64,000 nucleotides of DNA from Siphonodentalium dalli (Eukaryota; Mollusca; Scaphopoda; Gadilida; Siphonodentaliidae): contig CP136069.1 in NCBI GenBank assembly GCA_032622095.1, positions 162,429,043 through 162,493,042 on the forward strand. The letters run 5' to 3'. Shown here piece by piece: positions 7,475 through 61,426 of this stretch (within the stretch, counting starts at the first letter, position 1; each line of letters opens with the position of its first letter). The position numbers and the translations under genes are program-made. The notes beneath the pieces are model-generated. The model made no database searches, had not been told where the DNA came from, and saw only the letters and a list, made by a program, of their open reading frames with translations.

Positions 7475-8044
7475 TTAGGATATCCTACAGGCACTGCATT
7501 TACATTTAAAACCATTCCAGGTTTGTAACATACATTCAAAGTCTTTCATCGTCTCTGCGGTTCTGCGTGACTCTGGAAGAGAATTCCACACTTTAGGTGC
7601 CATGAATCTAAACGAGCTTAAACCGAAAGTAGTAGTATCAGGTGATGGCAGTTCCAGAGTCTCAGAATTTCTAAAAGAGTATGAACTATGTTTACGTTTC
7701 ACCAGGCAGTCCAAATAGGAATGAGTGCTAATGTTCTTCTTTAGTATTTTGAAAACTGTGAGTGCCATAAGTCTGAGTCTTTGGAGATGTAGATGCTCAC
7801 AGTTTGCAATCTTTAGGAGAAAGTCATAATCAGATGTGTAGTCATTATAGATAAAACGAAAGGCTCTCTCCTGAATTTTCTCCAGCCTGTCCGTAGAGGA
7901 CACACTGCAGAAATGCCAGGTAAGAGGGCAGTAATTAAAATTTGAGAGGATGAAAGATTTGAAGATACATTTTTTGCCTGAGATGGTCAGCATATGTCCA
8001 AGTCTCTTTAAGACATTTAGCTGCCTTGATGCCTTTGAACATAG
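7475..8044 (-). pseudogene. LINE-B C-terminal domain
   Basis: This is the thumb and C-terminal region: ILSNFNYCPLTWHFCS, then RLEKIQERAFRFIYND, and near the end APKVWNSLPESRR with a following ETMKDFECML. That order is characteristic of CR1/Jockey-type LINE C-termini. It lies in the frame used after the shift near 8390 and is separated from the RT by a stop near 8045. The 3' UTR then runs to 7108. Confidence 0.85.
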
Positions 8045-11025: not shown

Positions 11026-11100
11026 GTGTCACTTGGGTTGGGAGATCGAGTACACCCTGCACGAAGATAGGGAACGCAAAAAAAATTTGCGCTGAAAGTC

Positions 11101-15704: not shown

Positions 15705-15893
15705 GGGTGCAGTCTGGTATAGTATCGGCGGGCTGCCAGTCAGAACTGCCACAAACGAAAGTCGCCATCGACGCAAGATTGATTGTGGCGATGTCGTAAC
15801 CAGACATACAAAGAGGTGTGCAGAACACGCCCCCGACCCATGTATCACATGCGACGGCCCCATTCCTCGGAGGAGCTAGTTCCGGGCATGTCG
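15705..15893 (-). CDS. Exon: CCP domain, subtype B, third triplet
   Basis: The acceptor is ttttcag before cgacatgccc and the donor is cc/gtatgt. It is 189 nt, phase 1 at both ends. The translation begins TCPELAPPRNGAVACDTWVG and ends DTIPDCT. It has six cysteines and the usual GY and W of a sushi domain (CMSGYDIAT, SSDWQPAD). It is the 3'-most exon found and, with its donor intact, is not the end of the gene. Confidence 0.85.
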
Positions 15894-18800
15894 CTGAAAA
15901 ATTAAGTCAGTCATGTATAATGTTCGAAAATGAATGCCTCGTATAATAGACGTTGTCAAAATATAAATTTACACAATATTTTCTCACAATAATGGCTCAC
16001 AATAGACCTACACATGTAGTTTGATTTTCTATTCACAGTGAGGTGGATTCAGAAAGAAGTATTAATCCGTGATGTACACTACACACTATATAAACGGGTA
16101 TATTCCTTCTACGTGTAGATATTTATATTAATGTATGTTGTCCCTCTCCAGTCCACAGAAGAACTGGTGTGTGAGGGTGTGTGATTCCATGGATTCCGGA
16201 GCGGGGGCCTTCGCCCCTTGCTCTCAGCCAGGTAGAATAACGGGGGGCGAATGTGCCCTCTGGCAGATTCAGAGTAAAGTCAGCTTCGTCCGACATTCTT
16301 TTCTCAGAGCTAAACATAATACCACTCAATATTGCAATAGCTAATGAGGTATCCATTACCACCTGGGACAGATGGCCAGAATATTAACATACATGTGTTG
16401 CATATGGGTATAATTGTAAACGAACCGTTTCTAGTAACGCAAATCGGGCATGTCAGTGTGAAACAGACTTAAGGTGTGCGATGTTTATATCTCGCTATAT
16501 GTCAAATAACACCTACGATGTTGCTAATATCATGATGAGTGAAAGAGAGCAACTATAATTATCAGTATTTTCTGTATCTGAACCATGTAAATAAATGAAA
16601 TTTGTTGATTCGCTATCGGACAATATAAGTGGGCACAGCACCCGTTCAAATATTTATTTAAGGTTCAAGGGTAATTTTTCATGACACCTAAATTTCACTT
16701 CTAGTTAGAATCTTGTGTATGAAGTGTTTGGAACACGAAGTGCTAGATGGAAGTGGCTATTTTGTTTGATATTGAATTTTGTTTAATTATCAATTGTTGT
16801 TGTAACTCGTTGTCTGGAACCCCTGAATTAATTTATACGGATTGTTAATGTGTTAGCCACACCGTCATATTCTATAGTATCTTTAACAGCTAACGATATG
16901 AGAAGTAAACTTTGTGTAGTTCCACTTGGAACGATACTACTGTAGTTTACCTTCAAATACCTGTATGAATTATTCTTGCGAGATAATTACATGCTATTTA
17001 CAGGCAAATTTCGGTAGCATCGCTACATGTTGAAGTACATAGATTTTACTTCGTGTGTAGTTAGCTGTGGTAGAGTTGCATCTTATATGCTTGTTTACGA
17101 CAAAATGCCTGCAAACCATACCGTGCAAACTTGCCAGTGTATGAACGTACCCTAAACGAATATAGTTTTGATTACACCATGGACAATTGCTTATATAACC
17201 ATACCCCAGCCGTACCAAAATATATAGAATCAATAATTACCCTGTAAATGTAAAATGAGTCTAACTGCGAATGGTTCGAGTGACTTTGTTTTGATCATGG
17301 TGCTCGACGATATATCATGGGTCGAGAAATAGGGGGCTACTACATAATCTGAAGCATGATATATGCCTGCATAAATGTATGGGGTATATCATCGTTAGCC
17401 TTGCGTGTAATATAAATAGCATGTTTAAGAGGTAATTATGTCATTAAATGTTGAATAGGCATAATACTATATGCACTAACGAAGCCATAGCTAACTGAGA
17501 TTAGATCTACATTAGACCCACCAGGAGGAGAGCAATTTGGTTTCTCTTGTCCATCTGGCCACACCCACGATCCAGTTGATGAGAATTCCTGTCTATCACA
17601 TTTGATGACTTCAGAGCCAGTCAGTGAGTAAGCCCCCAAACAGGACATGTTGCAGCTGGTCCCGAAGATGGCGTCTGTGTGTGTGCAATTCATGTCCATG
17701 TAATCAATTGTTGAGAACTCTAATACGTTGCATGTCACAACTGTAAATATACATATATATAATAGTCCTTTATTTCCTCAAATGTTGGAGATCAAGTATA
17801 AACATTCAAATGCAATACAAATCACAATACATGTTAAGCCTACATAGAATAATTATTATTGTGAATACGTATATAGGACAGAGTCACATATACCTTATTT
17901 CCGGTCTACCCTCACATACAATATGAATAGAGCAACATAGTTGGTTTGTTTGTTTTACAGAATTTGATATACACTATAACACTCCATCCTATAAATCAAT
18001 ATTGAAAGTTTCTAATACATGTATATTCAAGCCAAAATTACATTATGTTATATAGCATATTATATATAACACCTGGAAATATAAGCACACCAGATCTAAC
18101 TACTGTTCTATGAAAATGTGTATTAACATATTCATACGGTAAAATGCAGCTATATCAGCTGCACCATACAGTAGTAGTTTTTTGCGATTAATTTATAACA
18201 AAGATTTGATAATTATAATTATGTTGCCTTAACCCTTTCAGTGCCAGGTCCGATTCTTGTATCAACCCATATACCCTGTGCCAATGCATTATCTTATATA
18301 TGCGAGTCGACCATAGGTCGCCTCGCATATATAAGAGAATGCATTGGCCTAACAATTTTTCATCATTTGTTATTATTTTTTACAATTTTTACATTTTTAA
18401 TAATTTTTTCTTATATTCTTTAACAGACTTATTTTGTAGGTTTAGTGCCAGGGAATCTTACGTTTTTCATGGGCATCAAAATTATTACTATGAATACTCG
18501 GTGATAGTTTTGAGTTATAACATGCCCCTAAGGTTTTATCCAGTTTGTTTTTAAATTCGCTATAGCATGCTTAAGCATACCCCAAAACAATTCAACACAA
18601 TACAATCTAAAAAAAAACAAAAATTATTTTTTAATGTTTTTAGGGCCGATTTTACAGATCGTTAATTAACGGCCGATCAGATCGGCTCCTGGCAATGAAA
18701 GGGTTAAATGGAGTCAACGCATTTGAAGTGTGTTCATGCTAAATAACATCAGTTCTAAAAAACTATCATCAACACTTACATGAAAAATAGATTGCATGAC

Positions 18801-21800
18801 TGTTCGATCTTATTTTCATTATTATTAACTTTTCAATAATGGAATGTCGTATGTCTGTTACAGTGGAATTATCGACAGACGTCAAATTAGTCACCAAAGT
18901 TTAATAAAAACTTGACGGTCAACTTTGGAAAATGTCAAAGCATTGAAAAATATTCTAAAAATCATATTCAGACTGAAATATTTTAACTTACTACACGATT
19001 TGCGATATTTGTTGATAAATCACTGTTACTGTTTTATTTACATAACAACTGTATAAACATGCGAATTTAATTATCCGATAAAAATGTTTATCTATTTCTT
19101 CATGTTCTTCTTATTGGTGACATGTTTTATAGACTGTTTTATTTTTTTAATATTTACCCACTGCGAGTTCATTGGGTCCCTAATTAACTTTGCGTCAATA
19201 ACTTAATTAAATGGCATGATGTGATCATCTCATTAGTTTGTTCTAATATTCTGTGTGTAACTGTTTTAGAATAAACATATTAAAATAGCTTCAACAGACC
19301 TTCAACACTTATTGTAAAAGTACATGGATTCCCAATGTTATCTGACAGATCTTTGACTGAGAACATAATCGAATAATCGCCATCCTGGACTATCGTTCCT
19401 ACTGCTGGTCCAAGCTCTTGTGAGATAGTGACACGTCCAGAGTTATCTCTGGCTGCCACTGGTAACCAGGCTAGTTCCACATATGTCTCGCCAGCTGCTG
19501 GGTATAGAGCTTGGTCAACAGGACATGAGGTAATCACAGGAGGTTCAATATCTGCAAATCAAGTCAATCAAATTAAGGGTTGCTTTATAACTCTAAACAC
19601 AAGGAGGATAATTAAATCTACGAATCAGATTCTGCATTATTTTGAACTCGCAAAAGGTATGTCATCAAGACATGTTTGCAAAGTGCTCAAAGATACAAAC
19701 ACAGAGAGCAGACCCATGCATACCCTGACGTAAATATTTGCCAACCTAACGGTATGAAGCTTGAAACTTACATTTGATACATCACGCTCCGGTGTTAGGG
19801 TGACAAAATATGTTGATAATTAGGTTGAAGATATTTATTCAGTATTTAAACGCCACCGGCAGAATTACTCAAGTCACATAATTTACAAATATCTTGATCC
19901 GTTTTCTACAGTTTGGAATAACATAACAGAGCGTCACTTAGCACCACATTCTTGAAATAGTAGACATGAAGATCGATTGTTCTACATATCTCATAGAAAT
20001 AGAAACAAAAAGTTGGAAAATGTCTATGATTTTGTCATGTATGATTTTTAGTGTATAAATAAAGCCTGTACGTCAGCATATCATGTATGTATCGATTATT
20101 CATTCCTTCCAAATAAATAAAACATTTAAATGACGCATGTCCGTTTAACACTTTCTTTAGTAACCAGTTATGAGGTATACAATTGAATCGTAAATATCGC
20201 GTATATTGCATGTTATTGTCACGTTTGTACCCTTGGTTATGTAACCAAACATCAAAAACGTTCCAAAACCGATTGTTTATAGATAAGCACTTGGAACTAC
20301 CGATACGATGAAAATGCCCCGTTGCGCTGTGGAATGATGCAAGCAACAATCGCATTCAAATCACACCAAATTTTATTTTAATCGACCCATTCTACCCACT
20401 GTCAGTTCAAAATCAAGCTAACCCACGTTACTTCGTGATTGGGAAATGATCAGACAGAAAACATGTACATAATATAATTGATCTTGCAAATACATGAATA
20501 TTTCTCAATTCTGAAAATGCCCCGTTGCGCTGTGGAATGATGCAAGCAACAATCGCATTCAAATCACACCAAATTTTATTTTAATCGACCCATTCTACCC
20601 ACTGTCAGTTCAAAATCAAGCTAACCCACGTTACTTCGTGATTGGGAAATGATCAGACAGAAAACATGTACATAATATAATTGATCTTGCAAATACATGA
20701 ATATTTCTCAATCCAGTTAGTATTTTCTCCTAACCTATATATGGTAATACATACCGAGTAAGGAATATTACTGAGTCGTATTGTGAGTTATAACTTGTAA
20801 GCGCACCAAATTAGGGATTTTATAACCGACGTATAACGCGTGAAAATCTAAATAAGGAAATGGCGCAATATCGTGACTGCTTATAAACAATCCACTGCGC
20901 AATTTGTGGGGAAACTAAATAGTCGACCTGCATTTTCATGAACACAAAGCATGTTTTGTGAATAATATCGGATTCATATCATCATTATGCTATACTATTA
21001 GTATAGTCTTGAGGAAATTATCGTAATTTGATCATGTTCTTTCTAAATTATAACCTACAACGAAGGTAGCCCGTCCCTTTAAAAAACTCTTTCAAAGATA
21101 AAACGCTCTTTAAAATGTGTTTTAAATATTTTTTTATTTCTGAATATCTCCACTATTTTGTCAATATAATTACCCCATACCCCCTTCGATTAAATCTGGA
21201 TACTCATAATGAAATACAATCCTAACATCACGTGGCACCTGCTAATCGTGAACCACAATTTGATATTGTTTTATGTATCACCCTTGGCATATTGGCTGGA
21301 AACAGATGATGCAAATGCGGAGAGCATCATATTCATTGTGGGGACATGTTCAGATAATAAGCTTAAACATCTGTGCCAATATGCTACACAAACACAACGA
21401 CGATCGGAACCTACGGACAGAATCTTCAATGTAGGGAGACAATCTCCATTACGTAGGGGCCACACGATATACACTGCTACCTATTGAGATACGTGACATG
21501 GTTGTAACGGATTAAGCGAACCGAGGCTGAGAACTAATGTGGCATGATGGCGAAGAAAGATTAGACGCATACGAAGGAGTATAGGTAGCTACCTGACCGA
21601 TTTATATACGGATTAGAGCGAGTAGATGTCGCCAAAAGATTATCATTGAAAGCTAATGCGGCGTGCTGACGAGAAGCGACGACCCGTAGACGAATTAGAA
21701 GATGACGTTCGCTTGACTGCGTCAGGAACACCCCATTCGATCAGCCAAGAAAAATGCCCCATGCACGGCACGTCAGGAAGGACTATAAAGAATCCCGGAT

Positions 21801-24800: not shown

Positions 24801-27800
24801 GGGCTCCGAAATGCTGGCGGTGTTTTCTCGCAGCTTATGGCCCAAGTGTTATGTGGAATGGGTGATTATGCAATTGCGTATTTAGACGGTATTTTGATAC
24901 ACAGTGAGAACCTAGAATTACATTTGGAACATATACAAAAAGTGTTTGAAACAGTAAACGCAATATTTAGGTTTCATGATACCAATGGTGTCCGACATGA
25001 CAAGGTCAACGCCATTCGATATCTTGCACCCAAACTTCAGTCAAGGAGGTGCGTTCCTTCATTTGCATGAGTAACTACTATCGTAGATTTGTCCCCTCCT
25101 TTTCACAGATTGCCGAACCTCTGGTACAACATACAAAACATATGCTAAATTCAAATGGGACCACGCTTGCCAAAGTTCAAACTAAAGGAAGAACTGACAG
25201 CAGTAACCCTCCTCGCCTATCCAAATACAGCAATGCCCTATACGTTGTATACCGATGCAAGTGACTTCTGCATGGGCGCCTGCCTGACCCAGTTAGGTGA
25301 AGATGCTATCGGAGAACCGATCTATTATCTCTCACACAAACTGGCGATACTCATACCCGATGACCAACTGTTGAAACAGAGGCATATGCAATTCTCTTTG
25401 CATTGCAAAGGCTGGACCATTACCTCCATAATGCCACTTTTACAATAAAAACAGACCATAAACCATTAAAACATATCCTGGAATCCCCCATGCAGAACAA
25501 GAAAATCCAACAGTGGGCTTTGGGCATTGCTGGATATAACTGCAACATTCAATACATAGCAGGCACAGATAATCACTGCAAAGACATGCTCAGTCGAACA
25601 CCCCCTAATGCATATACAGAACAGGAAAAGGCAGAAGTAGATCGCCGAAACACAGGCAGAGGTGGCCGCTTTAAATTCATCTAACTTTCAACCCAAAGAT
25701 GTTGCCAGATGCGAGGTAACTCACAAGGAGCTGCCGAGTAAAAATCAAATTAGCAAGGCCTACCAGCCTACTGATCTCCTGTTCAATAAGCCCAACTTCA
25801 ATATGCTTGAGGAACAACAGAGAGACCCGGAAATTGCGTCAGTTCTGGATGCCCTCAACAAAGGAGAGGACACCCGGAATGACAAACACTTGATGATTGT
25901 TGGGGTACTGTACTACCTCTCAAGTGCTCATGCAGAACCGACCCCACGCCTTTGGTACCCACACATCTCCAAACCAACGTAATCCAACAATACCATGAGA
26001 ACAATGGCCATTTTGGAATAGACAAGACACATGATGCAATTAAATCCAAATATTATTGGCCCAGACTGTACAAGGAACTCAACTGCTACGTTAGCAAATG
26101 CGTGACTTGCCAAGTCAGGTCTCTGCAGAAACAGTCCCCTAAAATGCAAACAACAGATACAGCCACTTAGCCTTTCGCTAAGATTGGTTTAGATCTATCG
26201 GGCCCCTACACCTCTTTATCGGGTAATCGTTATATTATCAGCTTCGTAGATTTATACAGTGGATGGGCGGTGGTATTTCCGGTCAAGAACAAATCAGCAG
26301 AGAACATTGTTCATCTCTTGTTCGATGAAATCTTTCTGCGACATAGTTGCCCCCTATAGTAGTCATTGACAATGGCAGTGAGACCTTCAATTACAAGGTC
26401 AGGGACACATTGAAGGCTTTAAACATTCATCACGTGACTACTTCATAATATCATCCCAGAGCAACGCTAGGGTGGAGAGATTCCACAGCGCCCTTCATGA
26501 CCTACTGACAAAGAAAACCAGCGGACCAGCTGAATACATGGGACGTCCATTTAAATCAAACACTAGCTGCAATCCGGTTTAACAAAAATGAATCTGCAAA
26601 ATTTTCCCCATTTTACTTATTATACAACCGGGACGTCGTGTTCCCAATATATAATCTCCTGAAACCAAGGCGCAAATGGGCTGTGGAAGACTATCATCAA
26701 ATAGCATTACAACAACATAAATCATTTATGCTGGTACACAAACACATGAAGCAGGCTAAACGCCAACAAGCAGCGAAATTTGACCAAAATGCCAAGGACA
26801 TCAAATTCGAAATTGGTGAGGCCGTCTATGTTAAGAATCACTTACGAAAGAGCAAACTGGAAAGTAAATGGAAACCCTACTTCCGCATAACCAAACAAAT
26901 AACGCCCGTTACTTTCGAGTTAAGGAATCAACTAACTTGGAAGGTCACACAATTCCATATACATATGCGCAAGGCCTACCTTGAATGGGAAATCCCCAAG
27001 ACTGATACCAACAAACGTGCACAAACGTGTGTTATACCCCCGGAAGATGAAGATAGCGACGTCCCTGCCCCTATGTGGGTGGATCTTCTGGCGAATTCGG
27101 AGACAATGTTCAGACTCCGATGATGAAGATATCCCTTTAAGCGAGCTTAAGTTGCGCTTACAGCGTCGAAAAGCGCGACTTATGCACTTCGGATCATTAC
27201 AAAAACATGACTCGTCCACGGAAAAGGAATCCGGGCCGATTGCGGAAGCACCAAGCTTGTATTTCCGAACAACGTATCCCTGATGTACCAACGACGAAGC
27301 GCAGCCGACGACAACAGACGACAGGCCGATATACACAACTAGATATCAACCACTCAACCTATGAAGACACGAGCAGCCCCCGATTCACGCGGACGACAGG
27401 AAGACTCACTCAACTTATGAAGCCACGAGAAGACCCCGATCCACGCAGACGACAGGAAGACGAACCCAACTAGCAGAAGCCATACCGACGACCAATTGAA
27501 CTGTTTGTAAATAAATTATCAAATCATTTTAATGTCTGAACGTTATATATCCCCCGTCTTGGCACACATGACATGACATAGACTAACAATTCCTGAGAAC
27601 ACTGCTCGTCAATAAGTATCAAGTAAAGAAAGGATTACTGGGAAAGTCCATTTTGGTCTAAATCAATCATTCAATCAAATGGTGAAACATCTTACCGATG
27701 CACGGTATTGTGGAAAGTGTCCAGGTTCCAGAGCTGCGGCATATCAGCGTGGACGATTGACTCGCCAAGAACCCGGCATCACAGCTGGCAAAGCAGGAAC

Positions 27801-45800: not shown

Positions 45801-48800
45801 AATGTATATATCAATGTTCTGCATTAATTTGCAGCGTTGACAATTAAAGCATTCAAAGCATTCAGATATATGCGTTGACGACAGCTAATTTAATGAAGAA
45901 ATCCAGCTATGTTACTTTAGTTATTATTGTTTCTTTGGGCCTCGATTTCGATTCTTCTGATTTCAGGAATAAAAAAACGATATGTATAGTAGCCTGGAAT
46001 CGGTTCTACACATTGAATAGAGCCACCAAGAACCAAATAACGGTTTTTTGTTTTGGTTCTGTTGCAACTTTTTTTGCAGTGTTATAGATAGATGCATCAG
46101 GTCACTTAAATATTCTTGTTTATTTTTTTAAATGGATCTTCACTGATCCTAACGTAATAGCATTGTTCATGGAGATCCGACTTTATTGAGTTTATATGGA
46201 TCAGTTTCGAGATTATTCATGCATGTGGGTATGTATATCACATATCCTGCGGCTATATGAAGAAGGTTAAGTGTTATATCAGCCTAGTAGGTACTTACAT
46301 TCACAGGTCGGAATGGTTGGGCTATAACCGCCATTTGCCTGGCATGTCACTGCCGGTGAACCATTTGTTTTGTAGCCATCAAAACATATTAATGTGCAAA
46401 CTGTACCATATATTACTTCCACTCTGGTGCATCGAAGTAGTCCATTAGCGACATCACGGTAGGTACATGTCCTAACTGAATTGTAGAACAATAAACATAG
46501 TAAGCAACAAATCTATTAAGCCCACGCTCGCGTGGCCCTAATTGAGTGGGGTTTTCCCAAATTATGAAATACTACAATATATTTGATACAGTTTTGCCTA
46601 AAAGTCTTGATATTTCGAAATAACATTTTCTCAAAAAATTTCAAAATTTATTTTTAACAATTTGTAAATTGTGATTAAAATGACCAGAAATTTACGAACC
46701 ATAAATCAATTAGAACTTATAAGCCTGCTTTCCAAAAACATGAACAATCTTTAAAGTTCACTGTAAAGTACAATGTTTTCATAAATTCAGTATATATATC
46801 CATGACATGATATCTGAGGATCATGACATGGACTTTATTATTCTTGATTCAAGAAATATCATAATAATTTTCATTTAGAAAGTCAACCACCCATCAATAA
46901 TGTTCAATATCTAAACATTTGCATGCCGTTCCTTTTGACTGCCTTATACCATGAATATCTTCTCTACTCTATGTCCGTATAGAGATCATAACAAAACAAA
47001 TATTTGTTTCGAACATATAGGCTATCTTATAGTACAACTATACACTTCTGTAAATATATCTATATATGTTAATTAGTACTCTGTATTCGCCACTTAATTG
47101 TGGCATTGAGTAAATAAACAATCAATCAAACGATAATGTGACGTCACCAATTGTTTACATAATACGAGGAGTTATTTATTAAAGATGCGAGTACTTTCCC
47201 GCACAGTAGAACGGTTGGCTTACAAGATTAATGTCGTAATCGGAAATCAAGAGGCCAAACGAAATCGGTCGACTTGCAACCTCTCATGACCATCAGCAAC
47301 CGCTATCATCGCCACGACGATAACAACAACATTCTCCTATTTATATATACGTTATTAGTTCGCTTATAAATCGGACGCCGTGCTTATAACATATTTATAA
47401 CACCCAATCATCCCGAGAAATTAACAATCAGTGATGAGTTTCTATTACCAATTAAATATGTGTCAGTCTTACAAACCTGGTAAATACCAATCAATACTCC
47501 ATAATTTCCAGTGAACGATTCATTTCCGCTTTATACATGTATGTATTTGTAACGAATCGTGACATTCCACTTGACTATTGTGGTAATCTTGGATTAATTA
47601 AAGAGCACACCACTCTTCTCTTCTGTTGTGCATTATTCCATACATTCATAACCATATTTATTATATCACAAGCAGCACTTTCGGCCAATTTAAGTTATGC
47701 AATGGGGTACGGTTACCGACCTTTATTTTACTTTAATTTAAATATCTGTTGCCCCGGCAGTAAAACGGTCTGTCTTGATTACAATTTTTTCGTTGTGTTG
47801 TGGGGGGGGGTACTAAATGTACCACTGTTCAAGAAGTAACTGCAGGATTTCGACGACAGAGCAAAGACTCAAGCAACGCGTCCGAATACTTTTCCCCCTC
47901 TCGATCTGAAGTTTTAGTATGCCATACCCGGTATTACAAGCTGGTTTCATTCTGGTGCTAATGGGCGATATTAGCCACATAATATGGTCCCTCTCAGTTC
48001 CATATGGTCAGAATCCCAAATTATGTTATGACCAAATTCCATAACCCATCATTTAAAATGAATTAATCATGCCTATTAAGGTACTGGGACAACCTGAATA
48101 AAACATTTAGTAGTCATTGGATTAAGTAAATTGGTTTTTAAAAACCAGGTGAATCACGATTTGCTACCTTTTGGGAACAACAGAATAATGTTCGGGATAT
48201 ATGTGAAAAATCTACTTTTTTTTACCAAATTCGGTTGACATTTTGCAAGCCATCTGGAATAATTTTTCTAAAAACACATCAATGTGACACATTTAAGACC
48301 AATGAAAACAATAAACACCATTGATATCAAAGATAGTTCCATTTCACTTGAAAGAATGGTCCAAACCTGAAAGGTAAATGTTTGCCGATTTTTATGGCAA
48401 CTTTGTGATTTATTATTTCTGGTAATATCAGTGGTTAAAATAATAAAAAATTAACAAAGGTGCATCAGAAATGTTAGTATTCAATGTACATAGACACAGT
48501 GGTCAATTGTGTTCAACAACCACAACTTGTAAGCCATTACTTGTCATGGGGGCAATATTTACCATCTTCCATATGTTGGCCGCCATTTTGACAGCCATTT
48601 TGAGACAAAGTACCATTGTGTTGGAATACTCATTAGTAATGGTATGCCTCTTTTCTAGTGCACAGTTCTGGTAACTTCTTGTTGAAGTATGACTATAATC
48701 TCAATGGTGACTTTTTGTGAAATGTTATACCGCGTTCTATAACATCGAATTTTTGAGGGATCGGAAGTGGCTTGACATATTCCATTGCTCCAATGAACAG

Positions 48801-51800
48801 TTAACATGAACAATACAAAAGTCACAATTCTGAACCAGTTCCCTACAGCAGAGATATTAGTTTTGTTTTTTTAAATTACCCCCCCCCCCCTTCAGTATGC
48901 CATTTTGGTGGCCCTCTTGGACGTGGAGTTCCAATTTCATCCACAAAGAAACAGAATCTAGGCCCATTTGGAACATGAATTGGAATGCTCCATTCTTATT
49001 TTGCTGGACCTCTCATTCGAAATAGACGAATACGCACGAATGTCGGGTTAATACAAGTTCAACAATTAAGCCTGTGGCCGTTTGTTGAACTAATATTAGC
49101 TCAACAATCCTACAAATGAATCAATTGGAATCAAGTAACTACTCATCAATCGAGAACTCAGTTAACGGATTGAGGTTTGTCACAATTCCTCTCTACTGAC
49201 AATGTGATTATGCTATATCGGTAGGTGGGTGGAATCAATTTATTTCGAATCCAATATAAAATCGGATTAAGAGGGGGTGGCCCTTCTTATCTGTAAACGC
49301 CAGGAAATATCATTTCTTCTGTGACGTTTTTATGATCAGTGAATACCAGTGAAAATTTATACCAAATATTACATATGTACACGAAAGAGGAATCAAAAGT
49401 GAACCGTCTCAAGTTCGCCATTCTACACAGAATTTGAAGGGGTGGTTCTTATCTGTAAACGCCAGAAAATATTGTTTCTTAAGTTATGTTTTCATGGTCA
49501 GTGAGCATTAGTTAATATTTAAACCAAAAATCTCGGGTGTACGCGAAGGTGTAATTGAAAGTGATGTTGTGGGTTTTTTTGGAGCGCCCCTAGCCCCTAA
49601 ACACAAGGATTGCGAAACTTAAGAAATAGATTGTCTTCGCTGATTTAACGGTAACACAAGATCGGAAGCATCAAACCTTTCGTACGTGATAGTTTAATTG
49701 AAACCTCTGGGATCCCTGTACATTTGGACCGAATCGCTAGCATATAGATAGAAATGTTCAGTGTCGACGCTGGTTGAACGAATCATGTCTATGGATATCG
49801 AATCGCCCAAACCATTCTCCGAATTTTGATAATGAATTAAAATCACATGGATGTTTACGCTCCAAAAAAACCTAATAATATTCTCTTTTGAATTTTTACC
49901 GGTATTGAAATAGGTTGATAAATACTTGAACTACCTTTTACGGGTATTATGTGTCACAGAAAGACGCATTGAAGTCACAAAGTACAACTTTGAACACGGT
50001 GTTTGGTCCCAAACAACCAAGAAGCCATGTGCACAGCATCGTACAAAAAGAGTTTTCTATGTTTGTCCATATCCTGATATGGTAGAAATAATGAGCGTTT
50101 GTTTCACTTCTGCGCGAAAAATTGGAAACGGGTTGTATGAAGCTGGTATATCAAATTATCAATGGATGTATATCGTGTATTTGTCAGCCTATCTTGTAGC
50201 TCCTAAAATTACACCAAATGGTCGTTCAAAATAGGTCAATACATAGGTGAAATACGCTTGTACGGAGTATTGGAGTAATAGAAGTTAAACCCTGTTAAGC
50301 ATAAAACAATAACGAGCGTTCATTTTTAGACTTATTATCTCAACATTTCCTAAGAAAACTGCTCGTCAGTAAGTATTTATAAAGGTCAGACTTAATAATG
50401 TAGTTTTATTCTTCTCACCTTTGACGGTGACTTTGAAATTGCAAAAGGCTGCCGCCCCCCTGTTGTCAATAACTCGGTAAGTGACCTGTACCGGATATCG
50501 TGGGAATCTAGAACCACTACCCAGTCCGTATATTCGTCGCACCGAAGACCTGAAAGACAACAGAATGAAAGCTCAGAAACTAGTATGAAGCGCGTGTGAT
50601 TGGCCAATAAATTAAGTGGCAAATCAAATCGATCATTGACATTATTTGTCGATATTTCCTGCTAAAACAATTTTGATGACTGCCAACACCTTTTCAACAC
50701 CGATTCAATGAAGCTCTATTTCTATCAATAACAGTGTATGCTTGAAATTCATGGTCTACTCTACTTAGTGAATCGGTCCTACTAAACAACAAACTTAAGA
50801 CAAGGTATATTGTGATGGAGCATGAGTTCTTTTCGGACTAACTAGATATGCTGCGAACTCCACTTTACTATAACTGAGCTCATATGACAGTAGGCAGTCG
50901 TTTGCAAAAAGACGTGTGTGTGATGTTACACATTCTGACAGGTTAATTACATTGCTAGGAAGAGAACAGGGGAAAATCCAACGAATCAGGCAACTATGCT
51001 ACTTGATTAATACATTAGATGTATTAGTATATCACCAACTCTTTGTTCAGTATATGATTCCATATATTATGATAGAAGTCTAAAAAGACCACTTCTGGTA
51101 ATAATAGTTTGGGTTGCCTTAACGATTTTGTAGTTAGTGTTAAGTGGAAGAGAATTCGAGCTACGCAGGAGTATGACACTGTCTGTGTATTTTGTTTCTA
51201 ATGACATAAAACATTCATCCCTGATTTGATTATATGATGGGCAGACTAAAAGAAAGTGGTCTGCGCTTTCTATGTCGCTACACGAGCATCTGTTGCTTTC
51301 ATTTAGGTGATTGTTGTGGAGGTCTTCATTGAGACTACTGCTCATATTATTCTCATGTTGAGACGCTCACTGGCATCAAGTCGCGATTTAAACACTTCTA
51401 GGAATTCCGTTTGTTTCAGTTCAGGGGTCAAGTCATTCCATAATCTACTCGCTGATGGCAGAACAGTATCCATGGATAAGGAGAGATCTGAGCGAGGGGG
51501 TCTGAGTGAAGTTTTTCTGAATGAGTATCGTTCTGCTCCTGGGTTCGCTTGGTTCAACACGTTACAGAGACATATGAAACATTTTGTATAATTGATGTAA
51601 CTTGAATTTGTTCCGTCTATCCGCCAAAGTTTGCCAACCAAGGTCAGATATTATATTATTAGTGTTAATACATGTACCCGTATTATTACGCCACAAGGTG
51701 GTGTAAGCTGTATTACAGTTTTTCATGTTCGAGCGGACGATCGATAATCCACTGGGCGAATGAATTATGGTTAGGTATTTTTTCGTACTTGAGTATAAAC

Positions 51801-54716: not shown

Positions 54717-54754
<38 letters not shown>

Positions 54755-55492
54755 AAAAATCTATACCATTTGTAACCACACACAATCCTCGCCACAACAT
54801 CTCGCGATGTGCAAAGGACCTTTTTCCTATCCTAGAAAAGAGTAACAAAATTCGATCGCTGGTGAATAAGGACGAAATAATAGATAGTAAGCGCCAACCA
54901 AGTAACTTAAAACGAATCCTGACAAAGGCACGCTTCCCATAGAAAACAAAACTGAATACCAAGTAAAACACTGTGGTGACAAACAATGTAAAGCATGCCG
55001 TCAAGTGTTTCCGGGGAAAAAATTACCATTAAAAAACAAAATGGAAATATTCCCAAATACTGACTTGGACTGTAAATCAAAAACTCTGATACACTACATA
55101 ACTTGCGATGGATGCGGCGAAGGATACGTAGGCCAAATCGGAAACACTGTATGTGGAAGGGTGACCATCCATCGGCAACAAATAAATCATAAGGAATATC
55201 GACAGATACCACTAAGTGGGCATTTGGAAGAATGCAACAATGGCAACTTCAGGATATTCCCATTCTACAAAATGAAAACAGACAATATTGTGGCTAGACT
55301 AGTGCAAGAAGATCTCTTTAAACAACGTTTCCGGTCGAAACTAAACGCCGGAAGTGACGTGTACAACCCACACCGGAAGTGACGTCATAATAACTTGTTG
55401 TTAATCAATGTCTATTGACAAATGCAAGAAGCATGAAAGGCCTATAGACTAAACGAATTAAAAATCAGTTCAGATCATGAATTAATCATTTC

Positions 55493-55534
<42 letters not shown>

Positions 55535-57724
55535 GTGTATACATGTATGCATACGATGTTTTTAAGATATCAATGTGTGTGCAAGGTGTGTGTGAGTTGT
55601 GTACGATTGTCGACACCCCACCAGTCCCGTCTATATATCTATGCAGTCGTTGTTATCAGATAGTGTTCTGTACATAAATGTGTAATATAATGAAAAAATT
55701 AAAATTAAAATTAAAAAACTTATTAAACAAAAAATTGTTTTGCTTTTCTGACTGCTGATAGTACTTCATTGCTTATCGTTCGGTAATTTGGTCTGATTTT
55801 CATTAAAAGCACCCATCGACTATCAATTCACAACCGCTTCTATGTGTTCCACTGGCTTTACGGATTATCCTGCATGCAGAAATGAGTTAATGTTCTATTG
55901 TGTGCTGTTTTCTTGTGTTGATACTGATGCAATGATACAATAAAGCTGATAATCTGAAATCCAGTGATGGGTGATAGGATGCACTTAAATTATTTAAGAG
56001 GGTCGCCATACAATATCATGGCATAGTGGTGCATGCGCAACGATCGTGATATTCAAGGGAATACACAATTATGGATTTAATTAAAACTTGAGTGCCACGT
56101 GTAAGTGTTTTAGTATATATATTATATGTGTGATTTGAATATTCTTTCGAATGTTCGGTCACATGACATAATCGGGCGTTTAAACCAGTTAACATATTTT
56201 ATAACTTGGTACGTAACAAAACTGGAATAGAAAATAAGTGAGAATTATAAGAAATGAAGAGCGAAAAGCCATAAAATTACACTTTTGAGGCCTCCTCAGA
56301 TACATGGTGTATATCTGTATTTTGTTGATGACAGTCCTGATGCTTCTTGCGTCTGGTCTCACAAAGCGCCACGTGCAAGTGGTCGTTGAAGGAACCTGCT
56401 ACCAGAAAGAACCAGTGGCTTGTCGTTCTTTTGGTTTTACTTCTGTTGTTATTATTACTGAATGTTGGGATTCTTTGACTGCATTGCTCAGCTCATCCAT
56501 CTCATTGGCGAGACTGTCTGTGTTTGTGTACAGACAGCAGAATTTAAAACTATTTACAGTTTCTTTCGATTTCTTTAGCTTTCTGCTCTTGGTTTTAGAT
56601 GGTCCACTTTTCTGTTCAATTGATGGCACCGTACTCATGAGTTCCATTCACCATTGGCATTCGATTCTTTTTCTGTGGCTATGGTGTACAACCTCTTGGA
56701 TTCTTCCCTTTCTATTCGGGTTAAGTCTCTCGTTATTGAGAGATTCCTCGGTTTATCCGTCGCATCCTTCAAATTCTTATTTTTCTCGAACATTGCACCT
56801 TTACTTTACTAACCTAATTTAGCGGGTTTTTTTGCGGGGTTTTTTTGTGTGTGTGAAAAAAAATGTGTTTGATTCACATCCAAAGTTTGTGTGCAAAGTT
56901 AATGTATTTTCCCTTTTTGTTACGAATGAAATAAAAACATACATGCTATATTCCCTGTGTATTGTTCATTTCGGTGGAGGTAAATTTGATACGAACATAT
57001 ACTGGACTTTTGACCAATACCTAATTCTCAAAACCACATTTTGATCAAAACTAATTGTGCTTGGTTTTGATCAGAATCAAAATGCATGTATTGCATATCT
57101 GACATTGTGACAAAGTTGAAACTCCATTTTGGTTTCGTGTGAAATCAAATTTTTTAATAATGTATTTTATAGGTTTTTATTTCAATATCCTTTAAAGGGG
57201 TATTGTACACTAAATCTGGTAATTTTTGGAACCATTTCCTTTTATACTCAACAGAATATATGTAACAAATGAATGAATTTGAGCCTTGGATGAGTACAAA
57301 ATACACTCATTTACTGTATGAACATGGTAATTATAACGAAAATGAATTTATGACTCCAGCCATCAATTCATTTTCATTATCATTACCATGCTGTTTGCTT
57401 CATTCCTAGAGCATGGGTGTATTTTGCACTAATCTATTGCTCAAATTCATTCATTTGTTGCATATATTCGGTTGAGTATAAACGGAGATGGCCCCATAAA
57501 TGGCTTGATTTAGTGTAATGTGCGTACCCCTTTAATTCCGTCGGCCATTATTATGGCTTGTATCACACAATGCGAATTTACATACGTCATGACTCCTTGT
57601 TGAGCATCGTAGGCCCTTGGACTTCTCCAACTGTAGCGTGCTGTCACCTCATTTCGTCCTGCATAAATCGTCTTAGAAGACGGGCACGATGTGAAATATG
57701 GCGCCGTGTTGGGCGGAGGAGGAC
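15705..57724 (-). CDS. Multi-exon HYR/CCP (sushi) modular gene, partial
   Basis: Ten minus-strand exons, listed individually below, make 644 codons across 42 kb. Each has an AG acceptor and a GT donor, and the phases join without a stop. The order is HYR-CCP-CCP three times. Exon lengths 5' to 3' are 139, 131, 177, 201, 255, 180, 189, 252, 219 and 189 nt. Proteins built from CCP and HYR domains are usually extracellular adhesion, matrix or recognition molecules (SVEP1 and hyalin are known examples). No signal peptide, transmembrane segment, stop codon or promoter is visible, so both ends are missing. Coding is only about 4.6 percent of the span. The whole could in principle be two adjacent genes, but the regular pattern and compatible phases favour one. 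Confidence 0.85.
15894..17521 (-). other. Intron between CCP-A3 and CCP-B3
   Basis: 1628 bp. A GC-rich patch at about 16140-16290 is open on both strands but has no domain. A tract near 16795-16835 (gttgttgtaactcg) is related to the inverted repeats at 79-114 and 2328-2370. Nothing else was seen. Confidence 0.6.
17522..17740 (-). CDS. Exon: CCP domain, subtype A, third triplet
   Basis: The acceptor is atatttacag before ttgtgacatg and the donor is cctg/gtgggt. It is 219 nt, phase 1-1. The protein starts VVTCNVLEFSTIDYMDMNC, contains the subtype A signature AIFGTSCNMSC and ends with PNCSPP. Six cysteines are present. The open frame continues past the donor into intron sequence, but the domain ends at the proline pair, which supports the donor chosen. 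Confidence 0.88.
18233..18703. mobile_element. piggyBac-type MITE, 471 bp
   Basis: Terminal inverted repeats CCCTTTCAGTGCCAGG (18233-18248) and CCTGGCAATGAAAGGG (18688-18703) match at 15 of 16 positions. Both ends are flanked by TTAA (18229-18232 and 18704-18707), the target duplication of piggyBac transposases. No transposase frame is inside. Near the left end a hairpin at 18281-18347 has 26-nt arms (one mismatch) around a 15-nt loop. It must have been mobilised in trans. Confidence 0.9.
18281..18347. repeat. Internal hairpin of the MITE
   Basis: The left arm ccaatgcattatcttatata continues to tgcgag. The right arm is its reverse complement with one mismatch. The loop is tcgaccataggtcgc. Confidence 0.9.
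19300..19551 (-). CDS. Exon: HYR domain, third triplet
   Basis: The acceptor is gatttgcag before atattgaacc and the donor is gaag/gtctgt (a weaker donor). It is 252 nt, phase 1-1, a whole HYR domain of 84 codons. Family landmarks are EPPVITSCP at the start, ARDNSG in the middle, and FSVKDLSDNIGNPCTFTISV near the end with the second Cys. HYR is an immunoglobulin-like fold tied to cell adhesion. Confidence 0.9.
19552..21924 (-). other. Intron part upstream of the Gypsy-1 repeat
   Basis: It contains the exact tandem duplication at 20309-20712. From 21372 to 21924 there is a stretch beginning TGTGCCAA that may be the outer part of the Gypsy-1 5' LTR. Nothing else was recognised. Confidence 0.5.
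20309..20712. repeat. Exact tandem duplication, 203-bp period
   Basis: The unit starting tgaaaatgccccgttgcg at 20309 is repeated from 20512. I see no difference between copies over about 201 nt. It is either a very recent duplication or an assembly artefact. Confidence 0.95.
21925..22234 (+). repeat. Gypsy-1 5' LTR (conserved part)
   Basis: A direct repeat of the 3' LTR from aagcttgtatttccgaac to cttggcac. It contains repeated gacgacaggaag-type words. The true left edge may be further out, at TGTGCCAA (21372), which is the inverse of the LTR end TTGGCAC. Confidence 0.75.
22403..23309 (+). pseudogene. Gypsy-1 gag with zinc knuckles
   Basis: This is the capsid-like structural protein. Readable blocks are FDVSHTQYNEWIKSIEKC near 22510, then after a frame change near 22690 TTELANRFAEVLDSQLAF, and VQLVGFYIDALKSDSLKMK near 22865. 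Two CCHC-like knuckles follow: one frameshifted (NHLARDC near 23189) and one reading CWVCEGNHLAGNC near 23240, one residue short of the CX2CX4HX4C standard. The QLVGFYIDALKSDSL block matches QLVGYFVDGLYNDSL in Gypsy-2, so the two gags are homologous. Confidence 0.8.
23500..25690 (+). pseudogene. Gypsy-1 protease, RT and RNase H
   Basis: The aspartic protease motif is SLVDSDAEVSI near 23563 (usual DSGA, with Gly to Asp), then RNMILGRDWL near 23775. RT landmarks are YPLPVIDDILALKCFTALD near 24643, FGLRNAGGVFSQLM near 24800 and AYLDGILIHS near 24876, where the second catalytic Asp of YxDD is Gly. RNase H shows YTLYTDASDFCMGACLTQ near 25240 and TIKTDHKPLKHIL near 25439. Several stops and frameshifts separate these blocks. 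Confidence 0.85.
25690..27252 (+). pseudogene. Gypsy-1 integrase and C-terminal tail
   Basis: Integrase joins the cDNA copy to chromosomal DNA. The zinc-binding N-terminus reads YHENNGHFGIDKTHDAI with CVTCQ following (HHCC, 25990-26120). The DDE core keeps IGLDLSGPY near 26185 and VVIDNGSETF near 26361 but is broken by stops near 26170, 26357 and 26446. The C-terminal segment from 26638 includes KFEIGEAVYVKNHLRKSKL. After a shift near 27110 an acidic-basic tail (SDDEDIPLSELKLRLQRRK) runs into the 3' repeat. Confidence 0.85.
27253..27566 (+). repeat. Gypsy-1 3' LTR
   Basis: A direct repeat of 21925-22234 ending in TTGGCACA. Compared with the 5' copy it has an extra aaataaattatcaaatc-like segment and scattered substitutions. 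It abuts the pol tail with no obvious polypurine tract. Confidence 0.8.
27696..27884 (-). CDS. Exon: CCP domain, subtype B, second triplet
   Basis: The acceptor is aattttgcag before agatttcgtg and the donor is atcg/gtaaga. It is 189 nt, phase 1-1. It starts EISCPSPISLSPNGSYSEAN, carries the subtype B signature FRYESSCFASCDAGF and ends TLSTIPCIG. Six cysteines. The W in SGTWTLS is the conserved sushi tryptophan. Confidence 0.9.
27885..29293 (-). other. Intron between CCP-A2 and CCP-B2
   Basis: 1409 bp, the shortest intron found. It contains the interspersed repeat at 28435-28800. No other feature was recognised. Confidence 0.65.
28435..28800. repeat. Interspersed repeat with gggc(c/a)ataactctggt motif
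   Basis: Two imperfect units: gggccataactctggtga near 28459 and gggcaataactctggtaa near 28620. Each is followed by ttcattccattca and tcatc(c/t)gga words, then a gaacggacagatggacag tail. I associate such repeats with molluscan genomes; this is from memory. Confidence 0.6.
29294..29473 (-). CDS. Exon: CCP domain, subtype A, second triplet
   Basis: The acceptor is tcttttcag before tggtgacatg and the donor is gaga/gtaagt. It is 180 nt, phase 1-1. The protein starts VVTCRSSISIPDGRHSCEN, includes the subtype A signature IIFGTSCQFTCDAGY and ends IPSCE. Six cysteines, with potential N-glycosylation sites at NGS and NAT. The donor matches the consensus well. Confidence 0.92.
29474..30396 (-). other. 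Intron start, no feature seen
   Basis: AT-rich intron sequence on the acceptor side of CCP-A2. No gene, RNA or clear repeat was recognised. Confidence 0.5.
30812..31024. repeat. MITE-like element, 21-bp inverted ends
   Basis: CACTCTCTGGTGCCAAATAA at 30812 pairs with TTATTTGGCTCCAAAGAGTG ending at 31024, with two mismatches over 21 bp. The interior repeats agtgctgg words. I found no target duplication. Confidence 0.6.
31600..33131. repeat. 267-bp satellite array, about 5.7 copies
   Basis: Units begin attca(g/a)tttagcttttct at 31600, 31866, 32134, 32401, 32668 and 32935, with periods of 266-268. Each unit has four copies of agcttttct in alternating orientation (+, -, +, -), so stem-loops can form within a unit. 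The starts of units 1-3 (attcagtttagc) differ from those of units 4-6 (attcaatttagc), so the array grew in two blocks. Confidence 0.95.
33244..33921. repeat. 387-bp segmental tandem duplication
   Basis: The segment starting agggtggggg at 33244 recurs at 33631 and stays nearly identical through ccctttactcggcaggatt and a ctaccggatcagaacct tract. Each copy ends in a degraded version of the hairpin found just downstream. Confidence 0.9.
33922..34466. repeat. Tandem array of long hairpins
   Basis: Three hairpins at 33922-34007, 34107-34186 and 34288-34375, with a fourth broken start near 34464. The first has perfect 34-bp arms (outer cgctctatatatactaccgg, inner aacagcacctattt) and an 18-nt loop (tctggttaaaagtatggg). 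Hairpins are spaced 181-185 bp by a shared spacer containing atgacttttaattcaag. Confidence 0.95.
34467..34979. repeat. Diverged inverted repeat of the same family
   Basis: Arms near 34680-34740 (tcggtaaacgtgttgttta) and 34850-34920 (acacacttttaccgatt) pair and both carry cacgtgac. Single hairpin arms (gttccggtagtat) occur near 34815 and 34960. Confidence 0.65.
35450..35704 (-). CDS. Exon: HYR domain, second triplet
   Basis: The acceptor is aattccag before atacaactcc and the donor is gaag/gtactt. It is 255 nt, phase 1-1, a whole HYR domain of 85 codons. It starts TTPPVFDNCYSVTITITAPS, includes VTWVDLTASDNSG and ends KASPCIFSIEVE. It is more similar in layout to HYR3 than to HYR1 and needs no internal intron. 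Confidence 0.92.
35705..36097 (-). other. Intron, no feature seen
   Basis: AT-rich sequence directly upstream of the HYR2 acceptor. Nothing recognised. Confidence 0.5.
36098..38224. mobile_element. Non-autonomous element with ~90-bp inverted ends
   Basis: Both ends begin tagtctggtcgttga and share an internal arm (36122-36158 and 38154-38190) that pairs over 37 bp with one mismatch, including caaattgtttacaagctg. A shorter gaacaac match follows inside. The 2.1-kb interior has no transposase frame. It is a candidate DNA transposon; no target duplication was identified. Confidence 0.65.
38225..38784 (-). other. Intron, no feature seen
   Basis: AT-rich. No gene or repeat recognised. Confidence 0.5.
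38785..40665. repeat. Cluster of cacttaagtgcaaat motifs
   Basis: About 11 imperfect copies of cacttaagtgc lie at 38785-39058 and two more at 40614-40665, often followed by aaat. The two parts look like one cluster split by the G-rich segment at 39060-40612. The palindromic core CACTTAAGTG matches the NK2 homeodomain site consensus (TNAAGTG), but a transposon-derived origin is equally possible. Confidence 0.6.
39060..40612. repeat. G-rich repeat with inverted copies
   Basis: The segment gggggtcggaaaataattt through ccgaaaagcag at 39165-39245 is matched in reverse complement at 40526-40606. Further copies lie at 39060-39130 and 39340-39480. Words such as gggtgggtgggt could form G-quadruplexes. 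The middle (about 39490-40520) is AT-rich and has no recognised gene. The open frames across the G-rich parts are compositional. Confidence 0.65.
40666..41030 (-). other. Intron, no feature seen
   Basis: No gene or repeat recognised. Confidence 0.45.
41036..41720. repeat. Degenerate repeat with atggccgcc...gccatcttgg
   Basis: Five copies of a block acatggccgccggcagccat then cttgga start near 41041, 41137, 41285, 41442 and 41568. Several are followed by cgactaaatccttcggcac and tcatccgatcatcac. The inverted pair atggc/gccat lets each block fold. gccatctt matches the YY1 core. Confidence 0.75.
41721..43046 (-). other. Intron, no feature seen
   Basis: It contains acgctctttaaaat-like words (42105, 42150) also seen at 21100 and 28065, and a short ctttgacttataa duplication near 42410. 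Nothing else recognised. Confidence 0.5.
43047..43247 (-). CDS. Exon: CCP domain, subtype B, first triplet
   Basis: The acceptor is tgcattttcag before tgatcacgtg and the donor is attg/gtgaga. It is 201 nt, phase 1-1. It starts ITCSSLDQNTTRNGIYS, has the subtype B signature YNYNSRCWPTCDPGY and ends DAENSCIG. Six cysteines, and an N-glycosylation site in QNTTRN. Confidence 0.92.
43248..43804 (-). other. Intron with degenerate short repeats
   Basis: Near 43680-43790 there are words such as ccatagtcggaagg and tttaagggtc. These resemble the reverse complement of the gaaccctcagac repeats at 45030-45320. Confidence 0.45.
43805..44870. repeat. Inverted-repeat element, 28-bp ends
   Basis: AATGGACCTATCCGTAGGTA and on to CCGCCCAT (43805-43832) pairs with 44843-44870 at 26 of 28 positions. 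An internal caccacaagc word is also mirrored. The 1.07-kb interior has no transposase. No clear target duplication. Confidence 0.65.
44871..46298 (-). other. Intron with minisatellites
   Basis: At 45030-45320 there are about six degenerate phrases built on gaaccctcagactat. At 45405-45470 there is a gat/ggt trinucleotide microsatellite. At 45635-45745 gtatacccacagtagg is repeated three to four times. Confidence 0.6.
46299..46475 (-). CDS. Exon: CCP domain, subtype A, first triplet
   Basis: The acceptor is ctacaattcag before ttaggacatg and the donor is gaat/gtaagt. It is 177 nt, phase 1-1. It starts VRTCTYRDVANGLLRCTRVE, contains the subtype A signature VIYGTVCTLICFDGY and ends PTIPTCE. Six cysteines. 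The donor is a perfect GTAAGT. Confidence 0.9.
46476..49259 (-). other. Intron, mostly featureless
   Basis: AT-rich, with a poly-G run near 47803 and a poly-C run near 48883. Open frames at 47537-47839 and 48471-48674 have no recognisable domain. Nothing else seen. Confidence 0.5.
49260..49600. repeat. Degenerate tandem duplication, ~165 bp
   Basis: The tract ttcttatctgtaaacgcca occurs near 49284 and near 49447. In both it is followed by gaaaatat-like text, a gtcagtga word and a gtacacgaa/gtacgcgaa word. Confidence 0.7.
49601..50418 (-). other. Intron, no feature seen
   Basis: The 102-codon plus-strand ORF at 49926-50234 has no domain I recognise. Confidence 0.45.
50419..50549 (-). CDS. Exon: HYR domain 1, second half
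   Basis: The acceptor is tgtctttcag before gtcttcggtg and the donor is aaag/gtgaga. It is 131 nt, entering in phase 2 and leaving in phase 1. The correct frame reads SSVRRIYGLGSGSRFPRYPV, then VTYRVIDNRGAAAFCNFKVT, matching the end of an HYR domain including its second Cys. It completes the half encoded at 57586-57724 across a 7-kb intron. Confidence 0.85.
50550..51059 (-). other. Intron, no feature seen
   Basis: Probably includes the 3' UTR of the LINE fragment next to it. No gene recognised. Confidence 0.45.
51060..51850 (-). pseudogene. LINE C-terminal fragment
   Basis: Minus-strand remains of the end of a LINE ORF2, split over three frames. ISDLGWQTLADRRNKFKLHQ with LYKMFHMSL lies near 51640-51575. 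RYSFRKTSLRPP and SASRLWNDLTPELKQTEFLE, with VFKSRL after it, span about 51530-51370. A zinc-type motif CSCSDIESADHFLLVCPSYN sits near 51285. The order is typical of LINE C-termini. No polymerase core is attached; it may belong to the same copy as the RT remnant at 53850-54660. Confidence 0.8.
51885..52680. repeat. 16-bp minisatellite in two blocks, within a larger duplication
   Basis: Units of ccgaaggttcgctatt and variants fill 51885-52006 and 52415-52538, about eight per block. Flanking text (ttagagggttcattatcac, then gattttgttttgttttcgcg) follows each block, so a ~515-bp segment was duplicated. A second shared word, gggcccatacctttgaa, lies at 52206 and 52361. Confidence 0.85.
52681..53160 (-). 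other. Intron, no feature seen
   Basis: No gene or repeat recognised apart from a word shared with the minisatellite flanks (tttaatgtcattacgt, 52671 and 52751). Confidence 0.45.
53161..53640. repeat. 130-bp tandem repeat rich in ggtca half-sites
   Basis: Units begin atttgatac at 53162, 53292 and 53422, with a fourth shortened copy from about 53515. Each contains ggacgggtcaaatc, then one or more tgacc/ggtca hexamers such as tgaccttgacc and aaggtcaa. About 3.7 copies. Confidence 0.85.
53850..54660 (-). pseudogene. LINE reverse transcriptase remnant
   Basis: Minus-strand RT blocks in order are VSNYKPLSLLSCMSKAFEKC near 54555, QSGFVRGDSTVYKLTAIYDY near 54440, CDVCKTFVKVWHKGILYTLG near 54355 (catalytic Asp), VRDGITQGLILRPLLFLI near 54190, HIRLFADDTSMF near 54115 and HPPLTMANCIVEEVYYHRHL near 53930. 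FADD is intact but there are several frameshifts. Both ends are cut: the upstream end stops just before a (TA)n run at 54720. Confidence 0.8.
54720..54751. repeat. (TA)n microsatellite, left flank of the Penelope-like fragment
   Basis: An unbroken TA run directly before the first readable Penelope-like sequence. Confidence 0.95.
54752..55381 (+). pseudogene. Penelope-like element fragment with GIY-YIG endonuclease
   Basis: Plus-strand remains of the C-terminal part of a Penelope-like retroelement. The upstream part reads RQPSNLKRILTKARF near 54890, with two stops. A frame change then gives HCGDKQCKACRQVFPG near 54980, the Cys-rich linker. The 125-codon open frame from 55005 holds the GIY-YIG nuclease: YITCDGCGEGYVGQIGNTVC (residues 31-50), R52, H56, then HLEECN and DLFKQRFRSKLN (104-114), the usual end. 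GIY-YIG nucleases cut DNA for target-primed insertion. The RT core is missing. Confidence 0.85.
55495..55532. repeat. (TA)n microsatellite, right flank of the Penelope-like fragment
   Basis: A TA run about 115 bp after the end of the nuclease frame, matching the run at 54720-54751. Confidence 0.95.
55533..56398 (-). other. Intron, no gene seen
   Basis: It contains an aattaaaattaaaattaa run near 55690 and an aataaagc near 55939 that may be the end of another degraded retroelement. Confidence 0.45.
56399..56650 (-). pseudogene. LINE endonuclease N-terminal remnant
   Basis: A minus-strand frame reading FCCLYTNTDSLANEMDELSN, then VIITTEVKPK. This matches the start of LINE endonucleases (YTNxxSL and the catalytic Glu of TEVKPK). 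It degrades beyond that point. The same orientation and order as the RT remnant at 53850-54660 suggests one broken copy into which the Penelope-like fragment inserted. Confidence 0.65.
56651..57191 (-). other. Intron, no feature seen
   Basis: AT-rich, with a ttttgatca(a/g)aa mirrored word near 57030-57080. Nothing else recognised. Confidence 0.45.
57192..57535. repeat. Foldback MITE, 344 bp
   Basis: Ends TTAAAGGGGTA and TACCCCTTTAA. Most of the element is two long inverted arms. Left arm words such as ttatactcaac, aacaaatgaatgaatttgag, acaaaatacac and catggtaat recur in reverse complement on the right with scattered differences. The centre is near 57360. The ends overlap TTAA or TA, so the target duplication is ambiguous. 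Confidence 0.85.
57586..57724 (-). CDS. Exon: HYR domain 1, first half
   Basis: The acceptor is ctcattcag before gtcctcctcc and the donor is atgac/gtatgt. It is 139 nt, phase 1 in and phase 2 out. It reads PPPPNTAPYFTSCPSSKTIY, then AGRNEVTARYSWRSPRAYDA, the start of an HYR domain with the first Cys in TSCP. The usual DNSG turn is absent (YDAQQGVMT), so this HYR has diverged. It is the 5'-most exon I can support. Confidence 0.8.
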
Positions 57725-61389: not shown

Positions 61390-61426
61390 GAAGGAAACAT
61401 TTTAACTAAGGGGTTCCATTTTTAAG

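Follow-up and report, generated by a model that had tools for sequence, protein, structure and literature searches.

Three HYR-CCP-CCP exon cassettes in a scaphopod gene: probably the outer half of a membrane-anchored, polydom-like surface protein

The window, i.e. the whole stretch of 64,000 nucleotides that was analysed, corresponds to C9:162429043-162493042 in the genome of the scaphopod Siphonodentalium dalli, which comprises 2.23 Gb in nine contigs. Within it, ten minus-strand exons (57724..15705, window positions) encode the domain series (HYR-CCP-CCP)x3:

E1, 57586..57724, minus strand: first half of HYR 1, entered in phase 1 and left in phase 2 (splice sites, frame; Pfam HYR 3.7e-8 jointly with E2)
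E2, 50419..50549, minus strand: second half of HYR 1 (splice sites, frame; Pfam HYR 3.7e-8 jointly with E1)
E3, 46299..46475, minus strand: CCP-A of cassette 1 (Pfam Sushi 2.8e-10)
E4, 43047..43247, minus strand: CCP-B of cassette 1 (Pfam Sushi 1.3e-4)
E5, 35450..35704, minus strand: HYR 2 (Pfam HYR 7.9e-13)
E6, 29294..29473, minus strand: CCP-A of cassette 2 (Pfam Sushi 7.3e-10)
E7, 27696..27884, minus strand: CCP-B of cassette 2 (Pfam Sushi 9.5e-8; identical in paralogue B, see below)
E8, 19300..19551, minus strand: HYR 3 (Pfam HYR 3.5e-8)
E9, 17522..17740, minus strand: CCP-A of cassette 3 (Pfam Sushi 4.8e-4, E just above cut-off)
E10, 15705..15893, minus strand: CCP-B of cassette 3, by likeness to the class-B CCPs; last exon of the gene found within the window

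Each of the ten exons is preceded by CAG and followed by GT, and the predicted join is in frame. The introns bounding domains are in phase 1; the one within HYR 1, which is spread across E1 and E2, is in phase 2. The initial annotation had proposed ten exons in a strict HYR-CCP(A)-CCP(B) order repeated three times, phase 1 at all domain-bounding introns and a joined translation of 644 residues; all of this was borne out in coordinates and frame (1932 nt, 644 codons), with three HYR and five Sushi domains recognised by Pfam and E10 added by likeness. For E10, Pfam gave no hit; its assignment as a CCP relies on six cysteines, on likeness to class B and on a home-made HYR/CCP profile, which was derived from E1-E10 themselves, so that their recovery is no independent proof. 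In the 164 kb around the gene, this profile yielded nothing else of either domain type below E 0.05. No additional exon of these types that would break the triplets, as the initial annotation had proposed to look for, was thus found, nor were further triplets on either side within the same 164 kb; the gene itself does continue, with other domains.

Comparison with an inverted paralogue (paralogue B, on the plus strand of C9:162651131-162754829, at a distance of 164 kb) indicates that the gene continues beyond the ten exons for about 90 kb, past window coordinate 1 and to about C9:162353349. The whole model spans C9:162486766-162353349 (133 kb) and comprises 28 exons with about 1,740 codons, its 5' end missing. 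Following E10, these elements are arranged in order, each on the gene strand in both copies:

Xa, Xb: module X (no Pfam family)
Ephrin_rec_like 1 (Pfam 3.9e-12, window copy)
Ephrin_rec_like 2 (Pfam 7e-10, paralogue B copy)
Y: three exons, unassigned region
First EGF pair (Pfam 4.8e-9, paralogue B)
First TSP1 (Pfam 6.5e-11, paralogue B)
Second EGF pair (Pfam 4.4e-11, paralogue B)
Second TSP1 (Pfam 5.8e-13, paralogue B)
Degenerate CCP (without Pfam hit)
X'a, X'b: second X-like module
Ephrin_rec_like 3 (Pfam 2.3e-9, paralogue B)
Ephrin_rec_like 4 (Pfam 2.9e-11, paralogue B)
Transmembrane exon: one hydrophobic helix
Tail exon: some 50 residues, last exon of the model

A 644-residue protein standing alone is not supported; the cassettes form the first part of a longer gene, which goes on with Ephrin_rec_like, EGF, TSP1 and transmembrane exons. 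Exon junctions are in frame in 25 of 27 cases; the other two, Xa-Xb and X'a-X'b, both lie inside X modules and are not in frame with the listed exon ends, for which other donors are possible. An RKKR run after Xa in paralogue B and a KR pair in X'a adjoin these exon ends and may be absent from the protein. The donor site of the transmembrane exon overlaps an in-frame TGA, so that this exon could instead end the protein, and the tail ends differ between the window gene and paralogue B. A strict scan for a signal-peptide or start exon, covering 10 kb before E1 of paralogue B, was negative. In 100 kb around paralogue B, the home-made profile returned the same ten exons and one weak CCP (E 0.0028) near the 3' end. 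Searches with module X returned neither a Pfam family that passed the cut-off nor a relative of solved structure, every match having an E above 0.03; AlphaFold predicts one helix and a hairpin for Xb alone, with moderate confidence (mean pLDDT 77).

Large introns (up to 8.1 kb among the cassette exons, 41 kb from E10 to Xa, 19 kb from Xa to Xb) leave room for possible missed exons and, like the two junctions that are out of frame, could be taken to mean that the exons come from two or more genes, or from a pseudogene. Such an origin is very improbable given what the paralogues preserve: order and strand are the same, E1-E10 are open and free of indels, and dN/dS is below 1. All 28 exons recur in paralogue B in the same order, and the two copies align from upstream of E1 to the tail exon in homologous blocks of 77-98% identity with insertions between them; in the aligned non-coding DNA, the mean difference between them is 4.2% (single blocks 2 to 23%), with 400 indels. 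In E1-E10, which were defined from the window alone, both copies are devoid of stops in 634 codons, compared to 5.4 expected neutrally at the observed synonymous divergence (zero stops occurred in 0.4% of 5000 neutral simulations), and devoid of indels in 1680 of 1932 coding bases aligned, compared to 10 expected at the non-coding rate, E8 lying outside the aligned chain. The dN/dS ratio is 0.53 for E1-E10 and 0.37 for Xa-Eph4 (994 codons). The C-terminal exon ends were chosen as open and of equal length in both copies; the absence of stops and indels there is therefore partly built in, and for Xa-Eph4 only the ratio is informative.

An assembly haplotype duplicate is unlikely as the source of paralogue B: the copies are inverted and 164 kb apart on one contig, differ by the non-coding substitutions and indels given above, and have three further copies nearby.

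The introns hold several repeats. A gypsy-like retrotransposon (22388-27123, plus strand, judged by eye from its open reading frames) is located in the E7-E8 intron; the aligned block spanning it shows 98% identity with paralogue B across 12.7 kb, so the element either was there before the gene was duplicated or was transferred by gene conversion. The E5-E6 intron contains two tandem arrays (31599-33131, a 267-base unit in 5.7 copies; 33921-34479, a 183-base unit in 3.1 copies), and two identical tandem copies of 203 bases are found at 20309-20712. Elsewhere in the window, transposon-like open reading frames were recognised by eye at 3466-5373, 7475-11028, 11527-14389, 54906-55382 and 60162-63728. 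They comprise reverse transcriptases on both strands, another gypsy-like element and, at 54906-55382, a GIY-YIG-like end.

The triplet order itself could in principle be a product of chance or an artefact, which was rejected on the basis of the Pfam domains, the register of the CCP classes, the recurrence in sister genes and the open frames: nine domains of these two kinds can be arranged in 84 orders, the A and B classes of CCPs fit the cassette register, and the order recurs in the sister genes. When the six CCPs are divided into two groups of three (10 groupings), separation of the first from the second CCPs of the cassettes scores best (42.2; next 11.5). Among the HYR domains, HYR 2 and HYR 3 are the closest pair (38% identity), HYR 1 being 25-28% identical to either. 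In a tree of CCPs (17 rows, four genes), the midpoint separates the two classes with a support of 83/86, less than the tool requires for a firm branch; cassette 2 has its second-class row on a long branch, whose placement the tool regards as unsure, and the degenerate C-terminal CCP lies on the side of class A. The CCP groupings and the tree thus support the earlier proposal that a three-domain cassette was duplicated, as opposed to random shuffling, and the three cassettes would derive from one HYR-CCP-CCP unit.

A protein without close relatives is not supported either. A genome search with Xb gave 12 matches, all on the same contig, C9, and one per gene (78.17, 78.46, 138.04, 162.25, 162.38 (the window gene), 162.72, 163.22, 163.36, 176.41, 177.08, 177.36 and 177.63 Mb). 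Judging from these matches, the whole gene was probably copied into a family of at least 12 genes on one chromosome. At each of the 12 loci, module X precedes the first Ephrin_rec_like match, and TSP1 lies inside the Ephrin_rec_like series in at least 11. Two consecutive, unbroken HYR-CCP-CCP units are found in at least nine (at 138.04, 162.25, 162.72, 163.36, 176.41, 177.08, 177.36 and 177.63 Mb and in the window gene); the domain lists are lower bounds, since 150 candidates each were scored for Sushi (of 278), Ephrin_rec_like (of 256) and TSP1 (of 1812), and a missing unit proves nothing. The two genes near 78 Mb are visible only in part. The gene of 163.22 Mb (E4 at 163.17) has an extra partial HYR next to E5. 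Since the genes at 176.41 and 177.08 Mb (HYR positions 176.43 and 177.04) show four HYR matches each, one of the four partial, cassette number is not fixed, and 'strictly three' is no rule of the family. C9, which makes up 9.7% of the genome, holds 43 of its 51 HYR matches; five further groups on it (77.96, 78.27, 176.55, 177.21 and 177.45 Mb) combine HYR and CCP without an X or Ephrin_rec_like match among the candidates scored. Other clusters of Ephrin_rec_like and Sushi matches, at C3:164.29-164.76, C1:29.2-30.1, C5:104.70-104.84 and C3:208.98-209.30 Mb, are without a module X match and are perhaps further related receptor families. A dense TSP1 array on one strand occupies C3:161.60-161.82 Mb.

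Twelve copies on one contig, a variable number of HYR domains and recent inverted copies are features also expected of a diversifying recognition family (immune, allorecognition or gamete) whose copies are selected for variety. The divergence along the duplicated block, which could reflect gene conversion, may be read in the same direction. Between window positions 58723 to 15032 and C9:162650085-162701648, identity is uneven, about 90% at the block ends and 96-98% over much of its central part, E7 being the same in both; this pattern is possibly due to gene conversion. A diversifying family is nevertheless decidedly unlikely in view of the ectodomain ratios of the closest pair (0.53 and 0.37, see above) and of the pN/pS pooled over five genes (E5 0.46, E6 0.46, E10 0.54, Xb 0.73), where single pairs above 1 rest on few changes. 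Strong positive selection on the cassettes is not supported by these values, all below 1; selection on the predicted ectodomain is purifying. The transmembrane exon (dN/dS 4.3; 40 codons, 1 synonymous change) and the tail exon (1.9; 45 codons, about 4 synonymous changes) have diverged rapidly between the window gene and paralogue B, with too few changes for ratios above 1 to be read as positive selection. A related, more specific scenario is quite improbable: a chromosome-restricted set of membrane-anchored polydom-like receptors might use the distal (HYR-CCP-CCP)n rod as its variable recognition part, cassette and gene number varying as at a locus that recognises microbes, gametes or other individuals.

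The explanation that best accommodates these data is that the ten exons probably encode the outer, membrane-distal half of a large surface protein that crosses the membrane once (type I). This protein would be a lineage-expanded, membrane-anchored relative of the polydom-like proteins, the kin of SVEP1; its cassettes would have arisen by unit duplication, and its gene would have been multiplied into a family on one chromosome. The cassettes could form an extended distal rod, which binds a partner in the matrix or on a neighbouring cell, and the Ephrin_rec_like/EGF/TSP1 part a stalk. The short tail may anchor the protein or couple it to other receptors, presumably with no enzyme signalling of its own; some 50 residues are too short to hold a kinase. 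A role in extracellular recognition or adhesion, as initially suggested, is supported as the likely one. Alternatively, the product might be a secreted matrix protein like SVEP1, the transmembrane exon being skipped or the chain being cut at basic sites in the X modules. Polydom/SVEP1 is itself an extracellular matrix protein according to the available passages of PMC10281526, and the RKKR run and the KR pair, both perhaps not in the protein, would be the candidate sites. Secretion is conceivable but unlikely considering the hydrophobic exon: in five of the 12 genes, those at 162-163 Mb, it is matched over its full 42 residues and free of stops (no match in the other seven), and a tail exon follows it in each of these five (47 of 48 residues in two, 37 of 48 in three).

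The locus is a clear case of exon-cassette duplication within a gene, with later copying of the gene as a whole. Module X serves as a common marker exon, through which copy number, expression and polymorphism of the family are directly testable.

Among known proteins, SRPX and SRPX2 combine Sushi and HYR domains in one protein, but they are short and have one HYR; to our knowledge, they are without cassette repeat, Ephrin_rec_like or TSP1. With polydom/SVEP1, whose domains are described in the available passages as vWFA, Eph-like, HYR, EGF, pentraxin and CCP, and which binds Tie1 via a CCP and also integrin alpha9beta1 (PMC10281526), the window gene shares the combination of CCP, HYR, Eph-like and EGF modules within a single extracellular chain. 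It differs from this description by TSP1, the transmembrane exon and the repeated cassette, and neither a pentraxin nor a long CCP array was found in it: an exon-wise search (8 candidates; a strongly diverged copy could escape it) gave one genome-wide pentraxin match, at C3:206181325, and none on C9, and the place of a long C-terminal CCP array after the second TSP1 is taken by one degenerate CCP before X', two Ephrin_rec_like domains and the transmembrane exon. The sole pentraxin match sits at a separate SVEP1-like locus (C3:206.09-206.41 Mb) with the order Eph, CCP, CCP, HYR, HYR, three Eph, pentraxin and a long CCP array, which argues against the window gene being canonical SVEP1. At this SVEP1-like locus, 47 Sushi matches fall in one open frame of 2818 residues (C3:206394530-206402929), apparently a single giant exon.

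Titles and opening abstracts, with few subscription journals covered, contained no description of the module X gene family. The initial annotation had considered the exact triplet to be without a known counterpart and the protein a candidate for an undescribed one; the repeated cassette and the transmembrane exon do set the gene apart, but it has published relatives in the polydom-like proteins. Those of Nematostella vectensis, as far as the available passages of PMC12549020 describe them, are shorter, of the type EGF-Sushi-HYR-TKE, some with TSP1, without vWFA or pentraxin, and occur as several paralogues in one genome. The features held in common are a Sushi-HYR-ephrin-type (TKE) core, EGF modules, TSP1 (in some members there), the lack of a pentraxin, the presence of several paralogues and, for the window gene, no terminal Sushi array found. 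In contrast to these proteins, the window gene carries its HYR-CCP-CCP unit three times and has a transmembrane exon, membrane anchoring not being mentioned in those passages; the EGF pairs found in it follow the first Ephrin_rec_like pair (EGF was sought downstream only), and EGF precedes Sushi-HYR-TKE in the Nematostella type. The best reading of the predicted domain content is thus that the window gene fits the polydom-like proteins and not canonical SVEP1. The gene suggests that polydom-like proteins, matrix proteins in the available parts of the cited papers, can be anchored at the cell surface.
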